Part shown: positions 9,601-16,788 of the stretch, in pieces
Layout: each line of letters begins with the position of its first letter
Position numbering within the stretch: position 1 is the stretch's first letter
DNA from: Herbiconiux sp.
Lineage (GTDB): Bacteria > Actinomycetota > Actinomycetes > Actinomycetales > Microbacteriaceae
DNA: 64,000 nucleotides
NCBI RefSeq assembly: GCF_023264855.1
Contig: NZ_JAHFUW010000014.1
Span: 1 to 64,000, forward strand
Direction: 5' to 3'
The notes under the pieces: generated by a model
Databases searched by the model: none
What the model was told of the DNA's origin: nothing
The model's input: the letters and a program-made list of their open reading frames with translations, nothing else
Position numbers and translations under genes: made by a program

Positions 9601-10394
9601 TCGGCGACCCTCAGCAGCTTCCCCAGGTGACGCAGGGCACGCATCCGGAGCCCGTCGACGACTCCGCGCTGGGCTGGCTGACGGCCGGCCACGACGTGCT
9701 CCCGCCGGCCCTGGGCTACTTCCTCGACGTGAGCTGGCGGATGCACCCCGAGGTCTGCGAGCCGGTCAGCGTGCTCTCCTACGAGGGCGAGCTGCACGCG
9801 CAGCGGCCGGCCACCACCGATCGCTCGCTCGACGGCGTCGAACCCGGTCTGCACCTGCACCCGGTGCGGCACAGCGGCAACGCCACCGAGTCGGCCGAAG
9901 AAGCCGAGCGGGTGGTCGAACTGGTGCGGCACAGCGTCGGCCGGCGATGGAGCGACCCCGGCGAGCACGGCGACGGCGGCGGCGACGGCGGGGGAGACGG
10001 CGGCGCCGCATCCGGTCGCGCGCTCGAGCCCTCCGACATCATCGTCGTCGCCCCCTACAACGCCCAGGTGGAGCTGCTGCGCGCCCGATTGGCCGAAGCG
10101 GGCTTCGACGGCGTCTCGGTCGGCACGGTCGACAAGTTCCAGGGCCGGGAGGCCCCGGTGGCGATCGTGTCGCTGGCGGCCTCGTCAGCGCTGGAGGTGC
10201 CCCGCGGCATCGGGTTCCTGCTGATGAAGAACCGCCTGAACGTGGCGATCTCCCGCGCGAAGTGGGTGGCGCACCTGGTCTACTCGCCCGCGCTCACCGA
10301 TCACCTTCCGGTGAACGAGTCCGACCTGTCGACGCTGTCGGCGTTCCTGCGGCTCACGCGAGCTGCTCCCACCGTCCGTGCACCTGGCGGGTGA
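6681..10394 (+). CDS. TM0106-type RecB-like nuclease fused to SF1 helicase
   Basis: 1237 aa with a strong AGGAGG site. Domain order: a PD-(D/E)XK (Cas4/RecB-like) nuclease with DFLVK (~132) and EVYDTKL (~160); a Cys cluster CGRCAVC (~247-253) that may hold metal or Fe-S; an RNase H-like 3'-5' exonuclease domain with FFDFEGDP (~342) and NEYDC (~535); then an SF1 helicase with Walker A GPPGTGKT (~840), Walker B LLVVDEA (~948) and VGTVDKFQGRE (~1146). A Gly/Asp-rich insert (~1095-1110) interrupts the helicase. The family is assumed to process DNA or RNA ends in repair or defence, but its substrate is not established. The 3' end overlaps the convergent gene by 41 bp. Confidence 0.85.
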   Translation: MIVIGADGREAGTVLYSATDLTAAASCEFALVRRLDAKLGRIDPVVDPVDEMLERTARLGDAHELRALERFRAEFGAFDGVSARGVAEIDRPERTDPAGLLAQQEVTLQALRAGADVVFQGTFFDGRFLGFADFLVKVPAASVLPVPVPDGASAAVARYEVYDTKLARHAKITALLQLAAYAEQLERLGVPLGDEVHLLLGDGSRSTHRLADILPVYRDRRERLESLLDERLHAPAVEWGDPRYTICGRCAVCTPEVKRHDDVLQVAGIRVTQRARLQAAGIATMHELASSTGLVDGLAPATLDTLRDQARMQSEGRDGLAFRVYDPLPLAALPEPDPGDVFFDFEGDPLYTEPGDSGGAGADWGLDYLFGLVEHDPDRPGETVFRPFWAHDHAQEREALRAFLDHVTERLRAHPGMHIYHYANYERAHLQSLCARHGVGEAQLDELLRRNVLVDLYPVVKKSIRVSSSSYSLKKLEPLYMGDLYRDSEVTNAADSITAYVRYTELRDAGRADAGPAGAAAARAAERQLREIADYNEYDCVSTMRLRDWLRKRAVENGVVPADDGAEQPSLAGDTDAADGLVFEESALHRALGERLAREPGTEGAVDDPADRTAVALAAAAIDYHRREDKSFWWEHFNRLEQPIEEWADTRDVLVVTAGVVEADWYRNPGQRADRRMLRLRGELAPGSRLDEGMRGRFLVYDPPHPWPAPRSRGTDRVAHERSTVRGAGVLPGGATGYLIEEALPMNGEPYSAMPVAITPAAPPKTASLQSAIAEWGQQLADALPEFPADAALDILRRGTPRRHDGGTLEPVREGARGTIDAIRDSLVALDHSYLAVQGPPGTGKTYTGARVVADLVRRHGWSVGVVAQSHAVVENMLDAIVAAGVDSERVGKASESETARFTALRGKDALGRFLASARARGHGVVVGGTAWDFSNVTRVGRRELDLLVVDEAGQYSLANTIAVSVAARNLLLLGDPQQLPQVTQGTHPEPVDDSALGWLTAGHDVLPPALGYFLDVSWRMHPEVCEPVSVLSYEGELHAQRPATTDRSLDGVEPGLHLHPVRHSGNATESAEEAERVVELVRHSVGRRWSDPGEHGDGGGDGGGDGGAASGRALEPSDIIVVAPYNAQVELLRARLAEAGFDGVSVGTVDKFQGREAPVAIVSLAASSALEVPRGIGFLLMKNRLNVAISRAKWVAHLVYSPALTDHLPVNESDLSTLSAFLRLTRAAPTVRAPGG

Positions 10395-10644
10395 CCTGCC
10401 AGGCGATCGGCTCGGCCGACACCCGGGCGCCGTCGATTCCCTGCTCGGCGATCAGGAAGGCCGCCTCGTCGGTGTCGGCCGTGTAGCGCACCGTCACGCG
10501 CGGAGCGCCGTTGACGATCGCGATGTCGGAGGCTTCCACGGTGGTGAAGTCGGCGATCGCCTGGGTGAGCGTCGGCAGCACGGTCTCGGGCTTGACGCCG
10601 AGCTCGAGGGTTCCGACGATCATGGTCACGCGGTAAGAGGGCAT
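10354..10644 (-). CDS. Hypothetical small protein
   Basis: 96 aa from ATG 10644, chosen because GGAG lies 8 nt upstream; an ATG at 10650 is the alternative. The sequence alternates predicted strands and helices (YRVTMIVGTLEL, then TLTQAIADF, then VTVRYTADTDEAAF), suggesting a small alpha/beta fold. I recognise no family. It converges with and overlaps the helicase gene by 41 bp and is divergent from the SRPBCC gene, sharing a short promoter region with it. Confidence 0.6.
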   Translation of the reverse strand: MPSYRVTMIVGTLELGVKPETVLPTLTQAIADFTTVEASDIAIVNGAPRVTVRYTADTDEAAFLIAEQGIDGARVSAEPIAWQVTRQVHGRWEQLA

Positions 10645-10670
10645 GGTCATCGCTCCGATTCGGTCTGCAT

Positions 10671-10720: not shown

Positions 10721-11215
10721 ATGGAGCTCGTCGAATTCGAAGCCACCGCCGACGCCGCGGCCTCGGCGGCCCAGGCCTTCGAACGCGTCGTTCCGCGGGA
10801 CGACGCCACGCTCTTCACCGGGTATCTCGTGCTGCCCGCCGTGGTGAACGTCTCCGAGCAGACCGGGCCGTGGGACAGGCCGGGGGAGGCCCGCACCGTG
10901 CACCTGTCCGACGGCAGCCGCTTCCGCGAGCACCTTCAGCGCTTCGAGCCGCCGGCGGATTCCGCCGCGACGGGCGTCTTCGACTACACCGTGACCGACT
11001 ACACCAAGATCCTCGGCCGGCTCGTCTCCGATGCCCAGGCGCGCTGGCGGTTCGAACCCGTTCCGGGCGGCGGATCGCGCATCCGCTGGTCGTACGGCTT
11101 CCGCCCGCGCCCGCGCTGCCGATTCGTCGTCAGGCGCCTCATCGGCCCGATCTGGTCGGTCTACATGCGGCGCAGTCTCGCGGTGTGCGTGCGGGTGGCC
11201 GAGGGGCGTGAGTGA
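10721..11215 (+). CDS. SRPBCC-type (polyketide cyclase/START-like) protein
   Basis: 164 aa from ATG 10721. The pattern resembles SRPBCC lipid/small-molecule-binding proteins: an N-terminal strand with ATADAAASAAQAFERV, a middle TGVFDYTVTDYTKILGRL, then RWRFEPVPGGGSRIRWSYGF, ending in a long amphipathic C-terminal helix. Such proteins bind hydrophobic ligands or act as cyclases, and the ligand here cannot be read from sequence. It directly precedes, and probably is co-transcribed and co-translated with, the ATP-grasp/acetyltransferase fusion, suggesting a shared small-molecule pathway. Confidence 0.65.
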   Translation: MELVEFEATADAAASAAQAFERVVPRDDATLFTGYLVLPAVVNVSEQTGPWDRPGEARTVHLSDGSRFREHLQRFEPPADSAATGVFDYTVTDYTKILGRLVSDAQARWRFEPVPGGGSRIRWSYGFRPRPRCRFVVRRLIGPIWSVYMRRSLAVCVRVAEGRE

Positions 11216-11231
11216 CCGCGGAACCCCTCGG

Positions 11232-13655
11232 ATGACGGCCGTTCTGCTCACCGGTTCGCGAGCGCCGGCCACCCTCGAGCTCGCCCGGCGCTTCGCCGAC
11301 GAGGGTGCGTTCGTGGTGGTGGCCGACTCGCAGCCCGCTCTCACCTCGCGCTCCTCGGCGGTCGGTGCCGCCTACCGGGTGCCCTCGGCGCGGTTCCGGC
11401 CGCGGGAGTTCGCCGTCGCGATCGAGGGGATCGCCCGCCGTCACGACGTCGATCTGGTGGTGCCCTGCTGCGAAGAGATCTTCTGGCTCGCCGGGTCGTC
11501 CGAGCGCCTCGGTGGGCGTCTGTTCGCGCCCCCGCTGCCCGTCTTGCGCCGGCTGCACGACAAGGCCGAGTTCGCCGCGCTGCTCACAGAGCTGGACATC
11601 GCGCATCCGGAGACCGAGGTGGTCGCGTCGCCGTTCGCCTGGCGCCGTCGGAGCGCGGTGCGGCGACGCAGCCCGGATGGGCCGCTGATCGCGAAACCCG
11701 CGTTCTCGCGCTTCGGCGGCGAGACCATCACGATCCCCGCCGGCTCCGGTCTGCCCTCCCTGCCGAGGGTCGACGCCGAGCAGCGCTGGCTGCTGCAGGA
11801 GTTCGTGACCGGTGAGGAGTTCTGCACCTACGCCGTGGCGGTGGCCGGGAGCCTCACGGCGTTCGTCACCTATCGGCCGGTCGCCCGGGCGGGGCGAGGA
11901 GCCGGCGTCGCGTTCGCCCGGCTCGACGACGCCGATCCGCTCTCGGTGCAGGCACGGGGGATCGCCGCAACGCTCGCCTCGGCGCTGTCCCTGACCGGAC
12001 ACTTCGGGCTCGATCTGATGCACTCCGCCGCAGGCCTCCAGGTGCTGGAGTGCAATCCCCGGGCCACCAGCGGGGTGCACCTGTTCGCCCCGGGCGACGG
12101 GCTCGCAGGGGCGTTCTCGGGCCGACCGGCCGGCAGCCCGAGCCGCGCCGGCGCTCGGCTCGGCCTGCCGCACCTGATGTATGCCCCGAGGAGCATCCGT
12201 TCTTTCGGCCAGCTCGGTGAGGCCGCCCGCCAGATGCGCTCGCCCGACGTGTTGAGCCAGCCCGGCGATCGCATCCCGTTCCCCGTGCTGCTGCGCTCGC
12301 TCGCCGTGCAGAGCTCGGTGGCCGCGAGGAACGGCGTGTCCCTGCTCGCCGCCTCCACGCTCGACATCGAGTGGAACGGCGAGCCGATGCCCCCGGTCGC
12401 AGCGACCGGTGTGCTGCACCCGCCGCCCGAGGCTGCGGAGGGGCGGCTTCTCGAGGAGCAAGACCGCTCGGACTGGCCCCGCCGGCTGGCAGCCGAGATC
12501 GACGACGCCGGTGGCCTGTCCGCGCTGGTCGAGAACCTCGGATGCGACTTCGGCACGGTCCGCATCGGTGGTCTCGACCTGCCGATGACCCGGCCGGCCT
12601 CCGCGCCCGGCCCGCAGCCGACGGTCGGGCAGGTCCGGGGCGGCACCCCGGAATTCTCCCCGATGCGCGACCTGAAGCAGGCGAGCGCGCACGCTTCGGA
12701 GCCTGACAGCTACGTCTCCTCGCCCATCTCGCACTACGTGCACTACGCCCGTGAAGAGCTGGCCGTACTCGAATCGCCCGTGTGGCGGGCCGTCGGCGCC
12801 GCGGTGGTCGGCCTGCTCGGCCGGGTGTTGCGTGCCGGCCGGGCCGACGACATCCTCCTGCTCGGCAACGCCCCTGTCTCGACCAATCTGCTGCCCGACC
12901 TGCCGGAGCGGGCGATCGCTGCGGCGACGGCGCGGATGAACCGCGATCATCCCGCGCTGGCCGTCGGCTGGCGCAGCGTCCACGCGCGAGGAGGCATCCG
13001 TCCCGAGGTGCTGAGGCGGTGCGGGTACCGCCTCATCCCCTCCCGCAGCGTGCTCTTCACCGAGACGCGCGGCTCCGAGTGGGAACGCCCCCGGGACACG
13101 GCCCGAGATGCCGCGATCCTGCGCTCCTCGGGCTACCGGGTGCGGGAGGCGCCCGTCGACCCCGCCACCGGAGTCTCGCCGTATGCCGTGCGGGTGCGTC
13201 TCGCCGAGCTGTACTCGATGCTCTACGTGCAGAAGTACTCGCGGCTGAACCCCCGCTACACCGAGCGGTTCGTCGAGGCGGCCCAGCGCAGTGGCCTTCT
13301 CCGGTTCACCGTGCTCGAACGGGACGGCCGGATCGACGGGGTCGTCGGCACGATCGTCGCGCACAGCTTTCTGGCCGCTCCGTTCGTCGGCTACGACACC
13401 GCGCTGCCGCAGGAGACGGGCCTCTACCGCATGCTCAGCTACCTGGTCGCCCGTCAGGCGCACGAGGCCGGGGTGCGCCTGCACGGCTCCAGCGGTGTCG
13501 CCGACTTCAAGCGCAACCGCGGGGCCGAGCCCGAGACCGAGTTCCTCGCCGTCTACGCGAAGCATCTAACGCCCGGGCGGCGGTTCACCTGGTGGCTGCT
13601 CGAGCAGATCGTCCGCCGTATCGCCTTGCCCCTGGTGCGCCGTCAAGGCCTCTGA
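11232..13655 (+). CDS. ATP-grasp ligase fused to GNAT-like acyltransferase
   Basis: 807 aa from ATG 11232. A GTG at 11208, with GAGGGG before it and an 8 bp overlap with the upstream gene, is a credible alternative. The N-terminal ~340 residues form an ATP-grasp fold: Rossmann-like start (VLLTGSRAPATLELAR), LIAKPAFSRFGG for ATP binding, LLQEFVTGEEFCTYAV, and the Mg-binding LECNPRATSGVHLF (~271-284). A middle segment of about 200 residues has no family I can name. The C-terminal ~230 residues (YSMLYVQKYSRLNPRYT, then YRMLSYLVARQAHEAG, then GVADFKRNRGAEPE) resemble a GNAT/FemAB-like acyltransferase. ATP-grasp enzymes join carboxylates to amines, so the fusion could build and acylate a peptide-like product. 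The substrate is unknown. Confidence 0.7.
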   Translation: MTAVLLTGSRAPATLELARRFADEGAFVVVADSQPALTSRSSAVGAAYRVPSARFRPREFAVAIEGIARRHDVDLVVPCCEEIFWLAGSSERLGGRLFAPPLPVLRRLHDKAEFAALLTELDIAHPETEVVASPFAWRRRSAVRRRSPDGPLIAKPAFSRFGGETITIPAGSGLPSLPRVDAEQRWLLQEFVTGEEFCTYAVAVAGSLTAFVTYRPVARAGRGAGVAFARLDDADPLSVQARGIAATLASALSLTGHFGLDLMHSAAGLQVLECNPRATSGVHLFAPGDGLAGAFSGRPAGSPSRAGARLGLPHLMYAPRSIRSFGQLGEAARQMRSPDVLSQPGDRIPFPVLLRSLAVQSSVAARNGVSLLAASTLDIEWNGEPMPPVAATGVLHPPPEAAEGRLLEEQDRSDWPRRLAAEIDDAGGLSALVENLGCDFGTVRIGGLDLPMTRPASAPGPQPTVGQVRGGTPEFSPMRDLKQASAHASEPDSYVSSPISHYVHYAREELAVLESPVWRAVGAAVVGLLGRVLRAGRADDILLLGNAPVSTNLLPDLPERAIAAATARMNRDHPALAVGWRSVHARGGIRPEVLRRCGYRLIPSRSVLFTETRGSEWERPRDTARDAAILRSSGYRVREAPVDPATGVSPYAVRVRLAELYSMLYVQKYSRLNPRYTERFVEAAQRSGLLRFTVLERDGRIDGVVGTIVAHSFLAAPFVGYDTALPQETGLYRMLSYLVARQAHEAGVRLHGSSGVADFKRNRGAEPETEFLAVYAKHLTPGRRFTWWLLEQIVRRIALPLVRRQGL

Positions 13656-13748: not shown

Positions 13749-14054
13749 GTGAGTTCGATCAATTCCGAAGCGGCCCGAGTGCTCGGCGCCCGCATCCGGG
13801 ATGAACGTCAGCGATTCGCCATCAACCAGATGGAACTGGCCGATCTGGCCGGCCTGCATTTCACGAACCTCGGCAAGATCGAGCGCGGCCAGGCCAATCC
13901 CTCGCTGCACACGATTCTGCGGATCGCCGGTGCGCTGAACCTCAACCCGGCCGTGCTGGTCGACGGGATCACGGCCGACATGCTTCCCGACCGCCCGCAC
14001 AAGATCACGGTGGCCGATCTCATCCGTGCCCGCGAACAGGGCGAGAGCCGCTAG
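13749..14054 (+). CDS. XRE family helix-turn-helix regulator
   Basis: 101 aa from GTG 13749 (MSSINSEAARVLG). The HTH is clear: RIRDERQRFAINQMELADLAGLH followed by FTNLGKIERGQANPSLHTILRIAGAL, a Cro/CI-type fold. The remaining C-terminal tail is short, so it is probably a minimal DNA binder. It follows the ATP-grasp gene by about 90 bp in the same direction and might regulate that small cluster (inference). Its stop is 12 bp from the stop of the convergent next gene. Confidence 0.8.
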   Translation: MSSINSEAARVLGARIRDERQRFAINQMELADLAGLHFTNLGKIERGQANPSLHTILRIAGALNLNPAVLVDGITADMLPDRPHKITVADLIRAREQGESR

Positions 14055-14452: not shown

Positions 14453-15211
14453 TCACAACCCCGTTGCGGAGGCATATCGGTCCAGAGCCTCGTCGATCGG
14501 ACCGTCGAAGACCAGGCGGCCCTTCTCGAGGTAGAGCCCTCGCGTGCAGAACCGGCGCAGGTCGCGCTCGTTGTGCGACACGAAGAACAGCGTGCGCCCG
14601 CCCGCCAGGAGCTCCTCGATCCGTCGGTAGCACTTCTCCCGGAATCCCTTGTCGCCCACGGCCAATACCTCGTCGACGAGGATGATCGGCTCCTCCAACT
14701 GGGCGATCACCGAGAAGGCGATCCGCACCCGCATCCCGCTGGAGAGGTGCTTGTACGGGGTGTCGAGGAAGTCGCCGATCTCGGCGAACTCGATGATCGA
14801 GTCGAACCGCTCGTCCACCTCGTGCCGGCTCATGCCGTGCAGTCCGGCCGTGAGATAGACGTTGTCGCGCACCGAGAGGTCGTCGACGAACCCGCCGGTG
14901 ATCTCGATCAGCGGCGCGACGCCCTCGAGCACGCGCACCTGCCCCTCATCCGGAAGCACCACCTCGGCCACCAGCTTCAAGAGGGTCGACTTGCCCTGGC
15001 CGTTGCGGCCGATGACGCCGATCGCCTCGCCGGCGGTCACCGTGAAGTCGACCTCGCGCAGCGCCCAGAACTCGTCGGGGCGAGCGCGCCGGCCGCGCCC
15101 GGCGAACAGGTCTTTGAAGCTGCGCCGAGCGCGCCGATTGCGCTTGAACCGGATGCCCAGACCCTTCGCCTCGATCACGATCCGCTTCGGCTTCTCCACG
15201 GTCCCCGGCAT
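14453..15211 (-). CDS. tagH: ABC exporter ATPase, TagH/Wzt type
   Basis: 252 aa. Walker A is GRNGQGKSTLL, the signature is SSGMRVRIAFS (a degenerate form typical of polysaccharide exporters), and Walker B is PIILVDEVLAVGD. The insertion with GVAPLIEITGGF and the SVRDNVYL block are typical of RfbE/Wzt/TagH ATPases, which power export of lipid-linked polysaccharide or teichoic acid with a TagG/Wzm permease. The permease gene lies directly upstream with a 1-nt gap. There is no long C-terminal carbohydrate-binding domain, so it resembles a short TagH. The exact polymer is unknown. Confidence 0.85.
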   Translation of the reverse strand: MPGTVEKPKRIVIEAKGLGIRFKRNRRARRSFKDLFAGRGRRARPDEFWALREVDFTVTAGEAIGVIGRNGQGKSTLLKLVAEVVLPDEGQVRVLEGVAPLIEITGGFVDDLSVRDNVYLTAGLHGMSRHEVDERFDSIIEFAEIGDFLDTPYKHLSSGMRVRIAFSVIAQLEEPIILVDEVLAVGDKGFREKCYRRIEELLAGGRTLFFVSHNERDLRRFCTRGLYLEKGRLVFDGPIDEALDRYASATGL

Positions 15212-15212
15212 C

Positions 15213-16031
15213 TCAGATCTCCTTCAGCACGGCGCGCTCGGAGCGCCGGAAGACCAGAACGCCGACGGCGAGCAGCAGCACCGACATCCCGGCGCCGATC
15301 CCCACCTGGAACCAGTCGAGCTGATCGGCGAAAAAGCCGGTGCGGTACAGCGCGAAGATGCCGCTCAGCGGGTTGAACGCCGCCCAGGGCTGCAGGTTCT
15401 CGGGCAGATCGTGCGTACCGTAGATGATGGGGGAGGCGTAGAACAGGAAGCGCAGTGCGAGCTTCACGGCCCGCTCGAGATCGCGGAAGAACACCACCAG
15501 CGGTGCCACGATCAGCGCCACGCCCATGGTCAGCACCGCCTGCAGCAGGATGGCCAGCGGAAAGAGCAGCAGCCCGGGATTGACGGCCGCGCCCGCGAGG
15601 ATCGCGAACACGGCGAGCACGGGGAGGCTCGCGATGAACTCGATGCCCTTCGACAGCACCAGGCGGTTCACCCAGATGGTGCGCGGGATCTTGGTGGAGC
15701 GGATGAGCTTCGCCTCGCGCAGAAAGGCCCGCGTGGCATCCGACACCGTGCCGTTGAACCACATCCAGGGCAGCAGAGCCGTGAGCAGGAACACGATGTA
15801 GGGCTGCGTGCCGACCTCGCGGTCGAACACCTGGGTGAACACGAACCAGTAGATCCCGGCCATCACCAGCGGATCGAGGATCGACCACAGGTAGCCGAGC
15901 GCCGACGTCGAGTAGCGCACCCGCAGATCGCGCCGCGTCAGCAGCCACAACGACCGTCGGTACCGCGCCCAGCCGCCGTACGCCCGCCCGCCCGGAGCGC
16001 GAGGCACCGTCACTGGTGTCGCTGCGCTCAC
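15213..16031 (-). CDS. tagG: ABC-2 permease for polysaccharide/teichoic acid export (TagG/Wzm)
   Basis: 272 aa. It begins with a cytosolic N-terminus, then LLTRRDLRVRYSTSALGYLW, the recognised amphipathic start of Wzm/TagG permeases, followed by six membrane helices. The loop FFRDLERAVKLALRFLFYASPIIY is also a family mark. It pairs with the ATPase gene 1 nt downstream and follows a nucleotidyltransferase gene, forming a three-gene cell-surface polymer unit. No glycosyltransferases lie in the window, so the rest of the pathway is encoded elsewhere. Confidence 0.87.
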   Translation of the reverse strand: MSAATPVTVPRAPGGRAYGGWARYRRSLWLLTRRDLRVRYSTSALGYLWSILDPLVMAGIYWFVFTQVFDREVGTQPYIVFLLTALLPWMWFNGTVSDATRAFLREAKLIRSTKIPRTIWVNRLVLSKGIEFIASLPVLAVFAILAGAAVNPGLLLFPLAILLQAVLTMGVALIVAPLVVFFRDLERAVKLALRFLFYASPIIYGTHDLPENLQPWAAFNPLSGIFALYRTGFFADQLDWFQVGIGAGMSVLLLAVGVLVFRRSERAVLKEI

Positions 16032-16095
16032 GTGGTCAGGCCCCTTCGGAATGGATCGAGGCCGATTCTAGCCCGACCGACCAGGTCGGGCCGGT

Positions 16096-16788
16096 TCAGA
16101 CGAACAGGTTGGCGCGCTCGAGGTCTTCGGCGAAGTCGACCTCGACCGCGTACAGGTCGGAGATGTCGATCGGCTCGACGAGCACGCCGTCCTTCTCGAT
16201 GGCCAGCTCGAGGCCGCGCTCGAAGTAGTCCTGGTCGTTCACACGCTGCAGGTGACGGATGAACGCCGCCTTGTCGCGCGCCGAGATGTAGTTGATGCCC
16301 ACGGCCTCGCCGAGGCCGCCGACGACCGTCTTGGAGAGTTCGTCGATGTATCCCTCGGCGGTGGTGGTGTACTTCACCTCTTCGTCGGAGACCTTCGCGG
16401 TGTTCACCGTGACGAACGACTGGTCGCGCGCGATCATGGCGATCGTGCGGTCGAGCACGGCCGGGTCGAACACGACGTCGCCGTTCATCCAGAGCACTCC
16501 GCCCGAGGCCGACGCCTGGAGGGCGCGCAGCAGGCTCTTCGAGGTGTTGGTCTGGTCGTACTCCTCGTTGTACACGAAGGACGCCTCGGGGAACGCCTCG
16601 ATGATGTGCTCGAGCTTGTACCCCACGACGACGGTGACCTTGGCGGCGGAGCCGAAGGTGTGCCGGATGTTCTCGAACTGCTGCCCCATGATGGTGCGGC
16701 CGTCGCTGAGTTCGGTGAGCGGCTTCGGGAGGGAGCGGCCGAGCCGGCTCCCCATTCCTGCGGCAAGTATGACTACCTGGGTGGTCAC
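16096..16788 (-). CDS. Sugar/alcohol-phosphate nucleotidyltransferase, LicC-like
   Basis: 230 aa from GTG 16788 with an AAGGAG site 6 nt upstream. The nucleotide-binding start VILAAGMGSRLGRSLPKPL and the downstream VVVGYKLEHI, YNEEYDQTNTSKSLL and WMNGDVVF follow the order in LicC/choline-phosphate cytidylyltransferases and related NTP transferases. It should activate a small phosphorylated compound as a CDP- or UDP-derivative for a surface polymer. It precedes the TagGH-type exporter by about 65 bp. Which compound is activated cannot be determined from the sequence. Confidence 0.78.
   Translation of the reverse strand: MTTQVVILAAGMGSRLGRSLPKPLTELSDGRTIMGQQFENIRHTFGSAAKVTVVVGYKLEHIIEAFPEASFVYNEEYDQTNTSKSLLRALQASASGGVLWMNGDVVFDPAVLDRTIAMIARDQSFVTVNTAKVSDEEVKYTTTAEGYIDELSKTVVGGLGEAVGINYISARDKAAFIRHLQRVNDQDYFERGLELAIEKDGVLVEPIDISDLYAVEVDFAEDLERANLFV

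Follow-up and report, generated by a model that had tools for sequence, protein, structure and literature searches.

An ATP-grasp–GNAT fusion protein as a candidate tailoring enzyme in a proposed fatty-acid-based pathway encoded at two loci

We found that an 807-residue protein encoded in the window, by which we mean the whole 64,000-nucleotide stretch of Herbiconiux DNA analysed here, joins an ATP-grasp module to a GNAT module in one chain (Table 1), and that its genus carries, at a second locus, genes for an adenylase, a reductase, a synthase and a P450. On the strength of sequence comparisons, we lean towards the view that the fusion is the tailoring enzyme of a fatty-acid-based pathway encoded at these two loci. 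What had been an isolated 'ATP-grasp/GNAT' annotation would thereby be placed in an orphan pathway, for which the genes at both loci are defined and the order of steps can be tested. The preliminary description of this DNA had proposed an ATP-grasp and acyltransferase-like protein in a biosynthetic setting, a view that Pfam matches and gene context support.

Table 1 Features of the window around the fusion gene
Feature	Position	Strand	Remarks
98-aa protein	10354-10650	-	
SRPBCC protein	10721..11215	+	PF10604, 164 aa
ATP-grasp::GNAT fusion ('FUS')	11232..13655	+	807 aa; ORF, Pfam and homologue searches
ATP-grasp module, residues 1-386	11232..12389	+	PRK06849/NF005315-like; ends in DIEWNGEP
Variable linker, residues 387-480	12390..12671	+	Homologue alignments
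GNAT (Acetyltransf_6) module, residues 481-807	12672..13652	+	Pfam
XRE-type regulator	13749..14054	+	HTH_3, 40.4 bits versus 23 (Pfam); judged outside the system
TagGH/Wzm-Wzt-like ABC exporter genes and nucleotidyltransferase-like gene	14453-16788		Near XRE

The fusion consists of two modules and a variable linker

The fusion was matched in all 16 genomes of the window's genus, so its frame is not due to chance. A single open frame runs across both halves in the window and in 14 of the 15 other genomes of the genus (a full-length match shows this in 12, and a frame of 1134 aa in G012 and of 1162 aa in G004 shows it in the other two), and the G009 copy is interrupted by contig ends. The dN/dS of the fusion was about 0.18–0.41 in the eight closest pairs, and the protein evolves under purifying selection. 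The full fusion is rare: 18 of 396 genomes in a phylum sample matched it, with both halves found in the window's own genome only. ORF reading reproduced the gene coordinates and the gap of 16 bp between the SRPBCC gene and the fusion that had been described, and the alternative in-frame GTG at 11208, read by eye, does create an 8-bp overlap with the SRPBCC gene. ATG 11232 is the likelier start: Met or Val occupies the aligned place in 10 of 15 homologues with a recovered N terminus, in a comparison whose cut was preset at that place so that only the residue letter is informative.

For the first half, Pfam reported ATP-grasp_3 at residues 110–280 (27.5 bits against a gathering score of 23.2). 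The previously noted ECNPRATSG motif is present at residues 273–281, and K155, D261, E273, N275 and R277, which we take to be ATP- and Mg-binding residues, were invariant in 10 of 10 aligned ATP-grasp homologues. The NCBIfam model PRK06849 (NF005315) matched residues 3–386, almost its entire length, with 229.4 bits; this is below the equivalog cut-off of 406, as were the 330–371 bits of the three cluster homologues scanned. The model describes a 'hypothetical protein' ATP-grasp family, from which the fusion differs by its added GNAT. In a tree, the fusion joined ATP-grasps of Rhizobiaceae and Roseateles with weak support (91/78).

The preliminary description had left residues 340–560 as an unassigned middle. 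This region instead comprises the end of the ATP-grasp module and the variable linker, together with a short stretch that belongs to the N terminus of the GNAT protein. We rejected a third domain because PRK06849 covers the protein up to residue 386, because a DIxWxG motif common to 10 aligned ATP-grasp proteins closes the module there, and because residues ~432–453 align with the N terminus of stand-alone GNAT proteins of Planctomycetota. Conservation was also lowest in the bins spanning residues 381–500, with minima at 401–420 and 461–480.

For the second half, Acetyltransf_6 (PF13480) matched residues 671–750 with 30.0 and 32.9 bits (gathering score 22.0). The acyltransferase assignment is probable at the family level only, since no more than 8 of 15 aligned GNAT homologues reached this family at E 0.01 and the AF2 model of residues 376–807 had a pLDDT of 37, from a 3-row alignment. 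The model of residues 1–403 had a pLDDT of 44, from a 5-row alignment. A PDB profile search returned no meaningful homologue of the GNAT profile; its sole match, a photosystem protein (E 0.015), was judged to be due to chance.

The fusion co-occurs with an adenylase at a second locus

Among 299 genomes of the window's family, 15 matched the fusion query, 9 with both halves and 6 with the ATP-grasp part only, and 18 matched the query for the F390-synthetase-related adenylase (hereafter F390), 12 of them strongly (E < 1e-30). A strong F390 match was found in all nine full-fusion genomes and in 3 of the 290 others (p 5e-15, uncorrected for kinship); this value overstates independence because seven of the nine belong to one genus. 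The six weak F390 matches (E 1e-4 to 2e-14) were counted as negative, and including them gives 9 of 9 against 9 of 290. These family searches scored few candidates per genome, so that misses are possible, and the F390 gene of L141 (G258) escaped the ORF caller, for which the window had served as training sequence. The two full-fusion genomes outside the window's genus are G040 and G268. The fusion of G268 resembles those of the genus (57%) but stands in a genome with a divergent core that bears a metallo-hydrolase (MBL; F390 41%), which suggests that this genome acquired fusion and core separately. In the tree, its fusion lies inside the fusion clade (100/100), grouped with the genus sequences (97/94).

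The second locus (locus 2) of the window's genome (G000, contig C21, L105) holds, in a run, F390, an OleD-like short-chain reductase (SDR), an OleA-like synthase, a P450, an ADH and a nitrilase-like gene. A Paraburkholderia F390 query found a homologue in 16 of 16 genomes of the genus at 44–50% identity (in G002 as three pieces, 36–60%). With queries from the window's genome, the 16 loci of the genus contained F390 in 16, the SDR in 15, the synthase in 12, the P450 in 15 and the ADH in 11. The synthase count depends on the query: a distant one found it at 9 of 16, the one from the genus at 12 of 16; a G014 copy on a separate contig brings it to 13 of 16 genomes. G003 (L115), G013 (L117) and G004 (L118) had no close synthase genome-wide (best matches 34%) and retain the fusion, F390 and P450; G003 also had no SDR at locus 2. 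Cluster-type MBL, Rieske and DUF3419 genes were each found at 0 of the 16 loci, and searches elsewhere in five genus genomes gave weak MBL matches only. Fusion and locus 2 are ~37–93 kb apart in the 11 genus assemblies with both on one contig, and ~21 kb apart in G040. The SRPBCC gene and the fusion had been proposed to form a compact unit, which these data do not bear out, as the likely partners (adenylase, reductase, synthase and P450) lie at the second locus.

The locus 2 adenylase matched TIGR02304 (F390-synthetase-related) with 348.5 bits against a cut-off of 251.9, and its SSGTSG-like motif, TEG and C-terminal Lys are retained in 11 of 11 aligned sequences. The best PDB matches of the synthase were 3row and companion entries, which we take to be OleA. 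Like OleA, the synthase has the Cys, His and Asn residues (C116/H278/N308, in 14 of 14 aligned sequences). A catalytic Glu, aligned with Glu117, the base of OleA, was present in 3 of 14, all of them from the window's genus or G040 (L105, L110 and L140), and synthases of other clusters are without it.

Separate ATP-grasp and GNAT genes accompany a recurrent core

In other phyla, the two halves are encoded by separate genes, most of which lie within a conserved cluster. We compared 25 loci, 21 from named records and four from the window's family. Across them recurs a core of ketoacyl synthase III (KAS), OleD-like reductase, metallo-hydrolase and F390, with Rieske, sulfotransferase or DUF3419 genes as extras. 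Separate ATP-grasp and GNAT genes occur in such KAS-SDR-MBL-F390 clusters of Paraburkholderia, Rhizobium, Shinella, Roseateles and Paenibacillus. Two loci from Planctomycetota MAGs carry KAS, an SDR-MBL fusion, ATP-grasp, GNAT and Rieske genes, with no F390 in the stretch examined. GNAT was present in 13 of the 25 loci, in 10 with ATP-grasp and in three with DUF3419; no locus combined it with both or with neither. On plasmids of Rhizobium and Shinella (L087, L150 and L151), a DUF3419 gene lies between F390 and GNAT, in the position of the ATP-grasp gene. ATP-grasp genes without GNAT were seen in Pontibacillus, Novosphingobium and three Pseudomonas plasmids; the Pontibacillus and Novosphingobium loci contain the core and ATP-grasp, with no GNAT match.

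Among plasmids, the fusion query matched 17 records and the stand-alone GNAT query 12, of which 10 were also among the F390 matches listed (30 of 64). The two outside that list are Deinococcus records, in which the ATP-grasp/GNAT pair stands alone, with no core within 26 kb. None of the 18 solo actinobacterial ATP-grasp loci that we read had the core nearby.

The core can also exist without ATP-grasp and GNAT, as neither is present in the stretches read from E. coli, Ketogulonicigenium and a Paracoccus. Plasmids of Ketogulonicigenium vulgare and Paracoccus alcaliphilus (L156 and L157) carry the core with a sulfotransferase gene and a TetR regulator gene that are transcribed divergently. In E. 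coli, the core lies between narI and tRNA-Tyr/purU (L154:5155-12036, L202:3001-9882), where KAS-SDR-MBL-F390 is followed by genes for a PAP2 phosphatase, a sterol-desaturase-family protein and an acyl-CoA desaturase. Of the 5426 complete genomes of E. coli, 672 matched it, all but one (671) over at least 80%; these genomes have the core in common with the proposed pathway. No published function for it was found in the literature searched.

Proposed pathway and comparison with known systems

The scheme that we propose starts from the observed gene content, co-occurrence and conserved motifs; its reactions, substrates and products are all predicted. Synthase and reductase of locus 2 would make a beta-hydroxy fatty product, the TIGR02304 adenylase would activate the acid of that product or another acyl group, and the P450 would perform a hydroxylation. 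The ATP-grasp half could then use ATP to link a carboxylate to an amino acid, or to another amine, and the GNAT half could acylate the free amine. The fusion would unite these last two steps, which elsewhere would be divided between separate, usually neighbouring genes, or would involve a DUF3419 (BtaA-like) protein in place of the ATP-grasp. Several observations count against such a pathway: the three genus species that have no close synthase, the lack of a cluster MBL at locus 2, the Deinococcus pairs with no core, the loci with core and ATP-grasp and no GNAT match, the solo actinobacterial ATP-grasp loci, the cores that stand without either enzyme, the rarity of the full fusion, an adenylase that is of the TIGR02304 type and not OleC, the low pLDDT of both structure models and the weak tree support for the link to Rhizobiaceae and Roseateles.

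The boldest step concerns the head group. According to PMC6642084, BtaA, an enzyme of betaine-lipid synthesis, matches DUF3419. Because DUF3419 is the BtaA family and takes the place of the ATP-grasp in three Rhizobiaceae clusters, the analogy suggests that both may install an amino-acid-type head that is then acylated by GNAT, although DUF3419 is not among the genes at locus 2 of the window's genus. More tentatively still, and with some doubt on our part, the KAS-OleD-MBL-F390 core may build a widespread and undescribed bacterial lipid class whose polar heads can be exchanged: an N-acylated amino acid (through ATP-grasp and GNAT), an aminocarboxypropyl group (DUF3419 and GNAT), a sulfate (sulfotransferase) or an oxidised form (E. 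coli), with the fusion as a one-protein module for the amino-acid head. If this reading of swapped head groups is true, a new bacterial aminolipid family could be identified.

N-acetylglutaminylglutamine (NAGGN) synthetase also combines ATP-grasp and GNAT in one polypeptide, and the fusion might by analogy make a soluble acylated dipeptide, an osmolyte or signal, merely borrowing an acyl group from lipid metabolism. The presence of both activities in one chain fits this idea, as do the pair without a nearby core on two Deinococcus plasmids and, among the weak matches of the ATP-grasp half in a PDB profile search, an L-amino acid ligase, 3vot (E 0.03). We consider it improbable nonetheless, given that DUF3419 alternates with the ATP-grasp and that the enzymes are associated with the KAS/adenylase core. 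TIGR03103, which we take to be the NAGGN synthetase model, with a domain order opposite to that of the fusion, also gave no match to the fusion at E<=1 in an NCBIfam library that may omit it.

The proposed fatty-acid-based pathway resembles the Ole pathway (oleABCD; beta-lactone, olefin) in its OleA-like synthase, OleD-like reductase, adenylate-forming enzyme and P450, and differs from it by the added ATP-grasp/GNAT tailoring. PMC7064751 describes how OleA, OleD and OleC convert acyl-CoA to beta-lactones, and also an ole cluster with a P450. The best match of the locus 2 SDR was the OleD model NF042422, with 138.2 bits, far below the equivalog score of 580. No OleC was among the matches of the adenylase, and no OleB among the genes read at locus 2. 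PMC2649909 mentions a fatty-acid cluster in which a gene annotated as F390 resembles acyl-CoA ligases. No description of the gene set as a whole was found in the literature searched, a collection with few subscription papers and no bioRxiv preprints.

Neighbours of the fusion in the window

The genus loci that we read share one gene order, except for what falls past contig ends: helicase, 98-aa gene, SRPBCC, fusion, XRE, 105-aa gene. The conservation of the neighbourhood, which had been put forward as a check on a functional link, extends through the genus. SRPBCC is missing from G040 and G268, and XRE is widespread without the fusion.

The SRPBCC protein matched PF10604 with 40.6 bits (gathering score 27.4); prestin, its best PDB profile match (E 0.008), was judged to be due to chance. 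With the fusion, it could make up a small-molecule or peptide pathway that is complete in itself and independent of locus 2, in keeping with its position in 15 of 16 genomes of the genus, where it lies upstream on the same strand, next to the fusion or separated from it by a single gene. We regard this as rather unlikely. A search of the 299 family genomes found no SRPBCC match in G040 and G268, which have the full fusion; of the 60 genomes with homologues, 53 lie outside the genus and lack the fusion, and the neighbours at the eight such loci that we read were unlike those of the window. The co-occurrence of the fusion with F390 also argues against independence from locus 2. SRPBCC is found together with the fusion in a single genus, and we rejected it as a core partner on account of its absence from G040 and G268 and its presence in the 53 fusion-less genomes. 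It was likewise rejected as a substitute for the missing MBL, given that a cluster MBL at locus 2 and an SRPBCC match are both missing from G040. Within the proposed two-locus pathway, it may serve as an optional ligand-binding helper specific to the window's genus. An aldo/keto reductase gene separates it from the fusion in three genomes of the genus (L042, L044 and L046).

Control of the fusion by the adjacent XRE gene, another earlier suggestion, found little support. XRE has homologues (E up to 1e-15) in 109 of the 299 family genomes, and at 6 of 22 fusion-less loci examined it stands beside the same 105-aa gene. Because it is found so widely without the fusion, a role as dedicated regulator is improbable, and we rejected it.

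The exporter genes adjoin in the window and in most loci of the genus, and the fusion might accordingly be thought to decorate a cell-surface glycan exported by this TagGH/Wzm-Wzt-like ABC system. We rejected the link and hold it to be very improbable, as no exporter genes lie beside the fusion in G008, G010, G011 and G040, and the fusion of G268 stands in a different neighbourhood. The 98-aa protein on the opposite strand, which had no Pfam match at E 0.1 and no NCBIfam match at E 0.01, is 80–94% conserved in the genus.
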